NCBI RefSeq assembly: GCF_023806465.1
Contig: NZ_JAMSLS010000004.1
Span: forward strand, 12,498 to 76,497
Reading direction: 5' to 3'
DNA: 64,000 nt
Source of the DNA: Thermomicrobium sp. CFH 73360
GTDB taxonomy: Bacteria > Chloroflexota > Chloroflexia > Thermomicrobiales > Thermomicrobiaceae
Shown: piece by piece, positions 38,390 to 40,924 of the stretch
Layout: each line of letters starts with the position of its first letter
How positions within the stretch are numbered: the first letter of the stretch is position 1
Notes under the pieces: model-generated
The model's input: the letters and a program-made list of their open reading frames with translations, nothing else
Databases searched by the model: none
Told to the model about the DNA's origin: nothing
Made by a program: the position numbers and the translations under genes

Positions 38390-38677
38390 ATGAAGCTGAT
38401 CATTGCGGTGGTTCAGAACGAAGACGCGGATGCTATTCTTGAGGGACTGTTGGAGCGTCAGTTCCGCGCCACCCGCTTGGCAAGCACTGGCGGTTTTCTG
38501 CGGCGGGGAAATACGACGCTGCTTATCGGTGTTGAGGATGCGGATGTTGACGCCGTCATGGAGGTCATTCGTGCGCATGCCCGGACCCGGGCCCGGCAAG
38601 AATCCCCTGCGGGTCAGGTGCAGAGTGCGGCTGCGACCGTGTTCGTGATTCCTCTCGAGGATTACCAGCGTTTGTAA
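38390..38677 (+). CDS. darA: PII-like cyclic-di-AMP receptor (DarA/PstA family)
   Basis: The 95-residue protein begins MKLIIAVVQNEDADAILEGL, followed by RATRLASTGGFLRRGNTTLLIGVED. The T-R-L-A-S-T-GGFLR-GN-T-L-IG pattern is diagnostic of the DUF970 (YaaQ, DarA, PstA) family, small trimeric PII-like proteins that bind cyclic-di-AMP. Known members have no enzymatic role and signal through unknown partners. The gene is a single unit with its own promoter and has no thymidylate kinase or holB neighbour, unlike the Bacillus arrangement. The nearby Kef-like antiporter is of interest because cyclic-di-AMP often controls potassium transport, but linkage is inference. Confidence 0.9.
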   Translation: MKLIIAVVQNEDADAILEGLLERQFRATRLASTGGFLRRGNTTLLIGVEDADVDAVMEVIRAHARTRARQESPAGQVQSAAATVFVIPLEDYQRL

Positions 38678-38688
38678 TCCCGCACAGC

Positions 38689-39024
38689 TCACCGGAACTG
38701 TGTCCAGCGGCGGGTGTAGGTGCCCCGTCTGATCCGTTGTGTTGCTCGCCGCATTGCGAGAAGCGTCAGCGCCGCAAGGACGAACCCCGCAACAAAGAGG
38801 AGTTCAACCGGTAGATCTCCTGTTTGCCAAGCGACGAAGCGGGCGGACAGCAGCCCAAGGAGTGTCGGATAGAGGAGGAGGCCGCAGAGTGCGAAGATTG
38901 CACTCTCGATGACAGCGAGTCGGTTGTCAGCCCCGGTCAACCGGCTCACAAGGAAGGGCGCAAACGTCCCTCCTGGAAGCCAAAGGAGAAAGGCTCTGAG
39001 CAACTCCGCTGTTGCCGCATCCAT
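38689..39024 (-). CDS. Small membrane protein, function unknown
   Basis: The 111-residue frame has three hydrophobic segments (about 8-28, 39-59 and 72-91), an arginine-rich C-terminus (RRATQRIRRGTYTRRW) and positive charges predicted on one side of the membrane. This membrane-protein-like composition is the main reason for accepting it. The ribosome-binding site is weak (AAGGAG 14 bases before the ATG), and no family is recognised. It is convergent with darA, 11 bases apart. Confidence 0.55.
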   Translation of the reverse strand: MDAATAELLRAFLLWLPGGTFAPFLVSRLTGADNRLAVIESAIFALCGLLLYPTLLGLLSARFVAWQTGDLPVELLFVAGFVLAALTLLAMRRATQRIRRGTYTRRWTQFR

Positions 39025-39402: not shown

Positions 39403-40257
39403 TCAGAATAACTGTTCTTCTGGCCAGAGACCAGCAAGGCGAAGGAGATTACAGGCCAAGACAGCTGTGGTCACTGGGCCCGTCCCTCCAGGCACGGGGG
39501 TGAGCGCACTCGCGACCTCGGCGACTGCCGGGTCGACATCGCCGACCAAGCGCCCGTCGATAACGCTCACGCCAAAGTCAACAACGACGGCGCCTGGCTT
39601 CACCATATCGGCAGTGACGAGACCGGGGCGTCCAGCCGCAGCGAAAAGGAGGTCGGCTTGCCGCGTGAATCTCGCGAGATCAAGGGTACGAGTGTGGCAG
39701 ATCGTGACCGTCGCATCTGCCATGAGGAGCAAGAGTGCCAGCGGACGTCCAACAATGGGGCTCCGACCGATCACGACGGCGTGGCGACCCGTTACAGTGA
39801 TCCCGTAGTGCCGAAGTAGGAGCATCCCTCCAAGCGGCGTGCTTGGCGCGATAGTGGGGGTTCCGAGGGCAAGCCGTCCTTGTTGCTCGTAGGACACCCC
39901 ATCGACGTCCTTGGCTGGAGGCATCGCTTCCGAGAGCGTGCTTCTGGAAATGCGCGGTGGCAGTGGTTGGAGGGCGAGGATACCCGTGACGCTCGTGTCC
40001 GAGTCGAGTTGCTTGAGCAATCGGAGGAAATCGGATTCCTCCAGCTGATCCTCCAGTGCAAAAGCACGCACCTCGAGGAGAAGATTGGAGAATTGCTTGC
40101 GTATAGCACGAGCGTAGGCCTGTGCGGAAGGGTCGCGTGGAACAAGAAGTGCCAGCGTCGGGCGGGGAGCATCAAGCGGCAAATTTTGGAGGATGGAACG
40201 GATCCGGGCATGCAGTTGCTCGACAACGGGTGTGCCGGTCAGCAGTTGGGCAGGCAT
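39403..40257 (-). CDS. folD: FolD-type methylene-THF dehydrogenase lacking the usual catalytic Lys
   Basis: The 284-residue protein has the FolD fold: substrate half (1-140) with PPAKDVDGVSYEQQGRLALG, NADP-binding half (about 145-270) with VVIGRSPIVGRPLALLL, and the final LTPVPGGTGPVTTAVLACN. FolD normally oxidises methylene-THF and hydrolyses methenyl-THF. The hydrolysis-critical motif is usually YxxxKxK (E. coli Y50, K54, K56). Here it reads Y48-ARA-I52-R-K54, so Ile sits at the essential Lys position. The next element, usually GILVQLPLP, reads GILALQPLP, shifting the conserved Gln. Cyclohydrolase activity is therefore doubtful. GAGGAGG precedes the ATG. The upstream gene encodes an FchA-like protein. 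Confidence 0.85.
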   Translation of the reverse strand: MPAQLLTGTPVVEQLHARIRSILQNLPLDAPRPTLALLVPRDPSAQAYARAIRKQFSNLLLEVRAFALEDQLEESDFLRLLKQLDSDTSVTGILALQPLPPRISRSTLSEAMPPAKDVDGVSYEQQGRLALGTPTIAPSTPLGGMLLLRHYGITVTGRHAVVIGRSPIVGRPLALLLLMADATVTICHTRTLDLARFTRQADLLFAAAGRPGLVTADMVKPGAVVVDFGVSVIDGRLVGDVDPAVAEVASALTPVPGGTGPVTTAVLACNLLRLAGLWPEEQLF

Positions 40258-40351
40258 AAGGGCCTCCTCGCATTTCTACTCGTCTCACACCAATGGAGGT
40301 GGTTCATTCCACAGCTCTCGCTCATTGGAGTTGGTCAAGAGAGCGGGCACT

Positions 40352-40924
40352 TTAACGAGTTGACTCTTGGAGAATAGCTGCTCGCCGCTCAATCTCCTGT
40401 TCTAATTCCGCTGCGCGTGGTGCGGTGAGCAAGGGCAAATTCGCGCGGGCCATTGCGAGTGCGGCTTGGATGCCTGAGCGGCACAGTGCTCGTGCTGCCT
40501 CAAGATCTGATGCGGCAAAGGCAGGGACCGCCGGTGCGAGGCGTGCGAGCATCTCCAGGAGCTCGAGGCCGAGGTCAGCTGTCCCAAGAGGGACGAGTGT
40601 AGCGTGCTCGATAACCGGCTGAGATTCGGAGCTCGCCGCGTCTGAACGCAGCGTCGAAAGCAACTCGTGCAACGCGGCACGATCGAGGTCGGCTCGGGCA
40701 AGCGCACGTTCTGCGATCGAACCAAAAACGTGAGCCATCTCTTGTTCTAGTCCATTGTCGAGAGAGCGACGGACCGCACGCCGTACCAGGTCTGCGAGTG
40801 CCGCAGCCTGGGCCAGGGCAACGCACGCCGCCACGCCTCCGCCACAGCGATAGCGCGGGCGACGCATGCGGTCGATGAGCTCCTGTACGCTCCAGCTCGC
40901 GATTCGATCGTCGACTTCGAGCAT
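40352..40924 (-). CDS. fchA: FchA/formiminotransferase-cyclodeaminase family protein
   Basis: A 190-residue, mostly helical protein. It opens with ASWSVQELIDRMRRPRYRCGGGVAACVALAQAAALADLV, where the family has V-----L----P-PGGGS-AA--GA-GA-L--MV; the GGGVAA loop is the recognisable signature. Members are methenyl-THF cyclohydrolase (FchA of acetogens and relatives) or formimino-THF cyclodeaminase. ATG 40924 has GGAGGAG upstream, so the six-base GTG extension is not used. The gene is 94 bases upstream of folD on the same strand. Because that FolD seems to lack its cyclohydrolase Lys, a cyclohydrolase role is the favoured inference. The match is weaker than for folD. Confidence 0.7.
   Translation of the reverse strand: MLEVDDRIASWSVQELIDRMRRPRYRCGGGVAACVALAQAAALADLVRRAVRRSLDNGLEQEMAHVFGSIAERALARADLDRAALHELLSTLRSDAASSESQPVIEHATLVPLGTADLGLELLEMLARLAPAVPAFAASDLEAARALCRSGIQAALAMARANLPLLTAPRAAELEQEIERRAAILQESTR

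Follow-up and report, generated by a model that had tools for sequence, protein, structure and literature searches.

The FolD protein encoded in the window, the whole stretch of 64,000 nucleotides that was analyzed, very probably serves as a methylene-THF dehydrogenase only, and the methenyl-THF cyclohydrolase step is predicted, from conserved residues and structure models, to be carried out by the FchA protein encoded next to it. The two genes share a strand, with the fchA-like gene 94 bp upstream of folD:

39403..40257, minus strand: folD, 284 aa, a methylene-THF dehydrogenase predicted to lack cyclohydrolase activity, matching PF00763 and PF02882
40352..40930, minus strand: fchA-like gene, a predicted methenyl-THF cyclohydrolase, 192 aa from a GTG start or 190 aa from the ATG at 40924

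In the proposed division of labor, FolD would use NAD(P) to oxidize 5,10-methylene-THF to 5,10-methenyl-THF or to catalyze the reverse reaction, and with Ile/Leu in place of the Lys/Gln pair, it would be unable to open the methenyl ring. FchA would hydrolyze methenyl-THF to 10-formyl-THF or, in the reverse direction, close the ring. The two activities, the co-transcription of fchA and folD, and the cofactor are the parts of this explanation that we infer. A separate fchA gene is present and no other FolD was found in the genome, as expected of the Clostridium perfringens type, in which a monofunctional FolD is paired with a separate FchA.

Membership of the window protein in the FolD family is clear, as the conserved Tyr, the substrate Asp, and the GRSxxVGxP and PGGxGPxT motifs are all present. 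Both Pfam domains score above their cut-offs (PF00763, 62 bits; PF02882, 184 bits), the top PDB sequence match is the Thermus FolD 6v6y (E = 2.4e-63), and confidence is high along the entire AlphaFold model (mean pLDDT 95.8). The dN/dS of folD relative to the same-genus genome G015 is ~0.11, indicating purifying selection. The best score against the NCBIfam bifunctional-FolD model was 269.9 bits, below the cut-off of 411, these models being narrow and weak evidence. PF00763 was matched once in the genome, which indicates a single FolD, and residues missing from this protein are therefore not supplied by a second copy. Three codons are central to the argument:

40102..40104, minus strand: Ile52 codon, at the catalytic Lys position (human K56, E. 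coli and P. aeruginosa K54)
39970..39972, minus strand: Leu96 codon, at the position of the Gln that holds the catalytic Lys (human Q100, E. coli Q98)
39901..39903, minus strand: Asp119 codon, the substrate-binding Asp (human D125, E. coli D121), kept, and invariant in the FolD alignment

The alignment also shows that the NADP motif GRSxIVGRP is kept. For the cyclohydrolase step of FolD, the Lys has been proposed as the general acid/base; the Gln keeps this Lys in position, and the pterin is held by the Asp (PMC3338484). The exact role of the Lys is treated with more caution in a simulation study of MTHFD2 (PMC9173628). The alignment with solved FolDs is ungapped across the active-site helix and matches Y48 to the conserved Tyr and I52 to the Lys (Y46 and K50 in the Thermus FolD), which bears out the claim of an earlier note on this DNA that Ile occupies the essential Lys position. 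Every same-family relative read also has Ile there, so Ile52 is not a chance occurrence. The same note had described the conserved Gln as displaced. The Gln is indeed absent, but its column is occupied by Leu96, i.e., it has been substituted. Gln97 lies one residue past Leu96, and many FolDs of the order have Met at this position, so the neighboring Gln is not conserved, and the displaced-Gln reading was rejected. The pair that marks a bifunctional FolD, the YxxxK catalytic Lys with its partner Gln, is therefore replaced by Ile52 and Leu96. The FolD could still be bifunctional if another residue, such as Lys54 of YxxxKxK or Gln97, took the place of the lost Lys and Gln, given that Lys54 is present at a position where K or R is common in the family and that Gln97 adjoins the lost Gln position. 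However, an equivalent of Lys54 is found alongside the catalytic Lys in normal FolDs (KDK in Thermus), implying that Lys54 is not a new replacement, the frequent Met at position 97 in the order speaks against Gln97, and both catalytic residues are kept by FolDs outside the class in genomes that lack FchA, so that continued bifunctionality is extremely improbable.

The assignment of the upstream gene to the cyclodeaminase/FchA family, made initially from the sequence of the window, holds: the protein matches PF04961 (FTCD_C) with 60.6 bits (E = 2.1e-16) against a cut-off of 24.5. This family was matched once in the genome, indicating a single FchA. With ~60 bits, compared with about 200 in much of the class, the protein is one of the most divergent in the set, yet it is intact. 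In an alignment with 48 relatives, the invariant columns are all kept (G30, G31, G32, D83, A110, D142, and N164), and the principal conserved positions are encoded as follows:

40835..40843, minus strand: Gly30-Gly31-Gly32 of FchA, invariant in the family
40682..40684, minus strand: Asp83 of FchA, invariant
40505..40510, minus strand: Ser141-Asp142 of FchA, Ser141 nearly invariant and Asp142 invariant
40439..40441, minus strand: Asn164 of FchA, invariant

The structure model of FchA (pLDDT 95.5) has the all-helical fold of the FchA/FTCD_C family, with a TM score of 0.85 to T. maritima 1o5h and of 0.78 to 0.82 to the M. extorquens methenyl-THF cyclohydrolase 7vg4, and the dN/dS of fchA relative to G015 is ~0.17, indicating purifying selection here as well. 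Both the Pfam family and 1o5h carry cyclodeaminase names, and fused FTCD proteins occur elsewhere in the class, which could mean that the FchA-like protein acts in histidine or purine breakdown as a formimino-THF cyclodeaminase and is encoded beside folD only incidentally. However, the formiminotransferase N-domain (PF07837, FTCD_N), present in 22 of 150 class genomes, was found neither in this genome nor in the 60 other genomes of the order that were searched, and therefore there is no known substrate supply for such a role. The gene order with folD, and often with fhs, is also conserved, and in genomes of the phylum outside the class in which a fused FTCD is the sole FTCD_C protein, the FolD Lys is kept in 15 of 15 cases. 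A cyclodeaminase role for FchA is unlikely, and we assign a very low probability to the account in which it is combined with incidental adjacency.

In all 18 same-family genomes in which FolD was found, fchA adjoins folD. In several genera, fhs follows folD to give the order fchA-folD-fhs (e.g., G026, 1444583-1447812), and the three genes are clustered in relatives from the same family and the same order, including G026, G041, G029, G053, G055, and G051. In the window's genome, fhs is located elsewhere on the same contig (218718-220355). With an Fhs of its own, this genome does not strictly require FchA for making 10-formyl-THF, and FchA would be needed for interconversion of the folate forms rather than strictly for supply. 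The presence of Fhs and the score of just 60 bits for FchA would also fit with FchA being a degenerate or structural leftover, with Fhs making 10-formyl-THF from formate and methenyl-THF being hydrolyzed non-enzymatically. This is highly improbable, however, in light of the fully retained invariant residues, the confident fold, and the dN/dS of ~0.17, and it is also at odds with the distribution of Fhs. FchA is present in 77 of the 80 good-quality class genomes in which only a broken FolD was read, and no Fhs was found in 34 of these 77, including one of this genus (G049); barring missed genes, FchA is therefore the only known source of 10-formyl-THF in those 34. As for the surroundings of the unit, a hydrophobic ORF of 111 aa with no Pfam match lies downstream of folD on the same strand (38689-39024, minus strand) and may share the folD transcript, and on the opposite strand, also downstream of the unit, is a gene for a cyclic-di-AMP receptor (PF06153, PII-like; 38390-38677, plus strand).

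The distribution of these genes across the class is consistent with the assignment of the cyclohydrolase step to FchA. The 150 class genomes yielded FolD in 131 cases and FTCD_C in 136, and the catalytic Lys is absent from 130 of the 131 FolDs read, its position being taken mostly by Ile and then by Leu. The co-occurrence of the Ile variant with fchA-like genes among relatives, which had been set as a test of the proposal, is therefore nearly complete (130/131 FolDs, 136/150 genomes). The sole class FolD with the Lys, encoded on a 3.7 kb contig of G071 as a second copy, is possibly foreign. The Gln is lost too in 48 of the 51 FolDs of the window's order and is kept in most of the remaining class, and the pairs encountered in the class combine Ile or Leu at the Lys position with Gln, Leu, His, or Phe at the Gln position. 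FchA was not detected in the genomes of eight class FolDs with Ile, possibly as a result of incomplete assemblies. Within one family of the class (f8), three FolDs (L202, L204, and L205) have Ile/Leu together with a change of the substrate Asp to Glu (KDVEG), and in two genomes of that family (G013 and G017), a fused FTCD is the only source of FTCD_C.

A wider set of 343 FolDs comprised the class, the rest of the phylum, Bacillota (centered on Anaerotruncus), and ~50 diverse bacteria, with fchA counted as adjacent when within 1.2 kb of folD on the same strand; a scan of the contigs of named genomes with the window FolD returned only distant FolDs of other phyla, which were used as the outgroup. 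In this set, the Lys/Gln pair is broken in all 112 FolDs adjacent to fchA, and both residues are kept in 109 of the 112 FolDs from FchA-less genomes outside the class, a nearly complete co-occurrence that supports the earlier note's proposal of a split of the dehydrogenase and cyclohydrolase steps between FolD and FchA. Two of the three exceptions are first copies of tandem folD pairs, and the genome of the third has another, unread FolD. Where FchA is unlinked, both residues are still kept in 13 Bacillota and 8 phylum FolDs, and this, along with the retention of the Lys beside fused FTCD proteins, indicates that an adjacent stand-alone FchA is the telling sign. The broken pairs of the Bacillota take the forms Ala+Phe, Met+Met, and Lys+Glu. 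At eight Bacillota loci (L417, L412, L415, L416, L418, L419, L420, and L421), the FolD Lys is kept, the Gln is changed to Glu (GIMVELPLP-like), and fchA lies directly downstream, which is a different way of breaking the pair. Three further FolDs (L067, L078, and L394), from Veillonellales, Dialister, and one more member of the Bacillota, have Met at both the Lys and Gln positions, in genomes with FchA.

On a FolD tree built with the Lys and Gln columns masked, the altered FolDs are essentially one old group, with 93 of 95 falling inside a clade of 94, and the Lys/Gln state changes three times. An independent-pairs test found only two to three changes, too few to reach significance. The pattern is therefore a strong association rather than a series of independent events.

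FchA-less relatives in the same phylum present another arrangement, in which folD is duplicated in tandem (~15 genomes: family f52 and G362; L426-L440, L301, and L276). The first copy has Lys changed to Ile with GRSNIVGKP intact, and the second keeps the Lys and Gln, with GRS replaced by NVD, SAD, NTD, NMD, or NAD and a second GR motif changed as well. At one of these loci (L434, 2580-3485, in G497), the first copy is broken by a TAG stop in this assembly. The residues suggest that the tandem copies split the two steps between them, with a cofactor switch in the second copy being a possible alternative, and such duplicates with reciprocal losses may be more novel than the FolD/FchA split. We lean toward the broader view that an intact FolD Lys/Gln pair and an adjacent FchA are mutually exclusive: an old FolD subfamily, spanning much of the phylum and Bacillota, would have ceded cyclohydrolysis to FchA and lost the pair in various ways (Ile/Leu, Ala/Phe, Met/Met, or Lys/Glu), and the FchA-less relatives would have reached the same division through tandem FolD duplication, one copy without the Lys and the other without the NAD(P) motif.

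The split of the two steps has implications for annotation, as FolD is by default annotated as bifunctional, a name that is probably wrong for the entire class here, and a monofunctional FolD would be predictable from two residues and the neighboring gene. It is also relevant to metabolic models, to antifolate work in which FolD is regarded as a single target, and to the question of why a two-step enzyme is split, and the relatives surveyed here constitute a ready natural set for testing the roles of the Lys and Gln.

This genome is not special in having a split between FolD and FchA, which is already known from other bacteria. The aspects that may be new are how widely the split occurs in this phylum and the two-residue rule; no paper tying the FolD Lys/Gln state to FchA was found in the open-access literature, the scope of our search, which is no proof of absence. 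The FolD of C. perfringens is reportedly monofunctional. It is established that some bacteria carry out the second step with a separate FchA, according to the passage of PMC7219735 that cites Aluri et al. 2016 on C. perfringens (doi 10.1099/mic.0.000209), and as described there, that system resembles the present one in pairing a FolD-family dehydrogenase with a cyclohydrolase step on a separate FchA. The residue route probably differs, as the Bacillota FolDs read beside fchA mostly have Lys with Gln changed to Glu, or Ala+Phe. MtdA of Methylobacterium extorquens belongs to a different dehydrogenase family than FolD. That system likewise has a separate dehydrogenase and FchA, with 7vg4 at a TM score of about 0.8 to the window FchA, whereas the partner of FchA here is a true FolD. 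MtdA/FchA pairs and FchA-MtdA fusions are known (PMC12844395), and fhs-fchA-folD clusters occur in acetate-oxidizing bacteria (PMC3584212). The bifunctional FolDs of E. coli, P. aeruginosa, and Thermus share the fold, the substrate Asp, and the NADP motif with the window FolD but have the catalytic Lys and Gln where the latter has Ile and Leu. Saccharomyces cerevisiae MTD1 (1edz) is an NAD-dependent fungal enzyme, very distant from the window FolD (E = 7e-9), for which we know of no FchA partner. Going by the references given in PMC11064299, MTD1 is a monofunctional dehydrogenase of the FolD family, and to that extent it is like the window FolD as read here.
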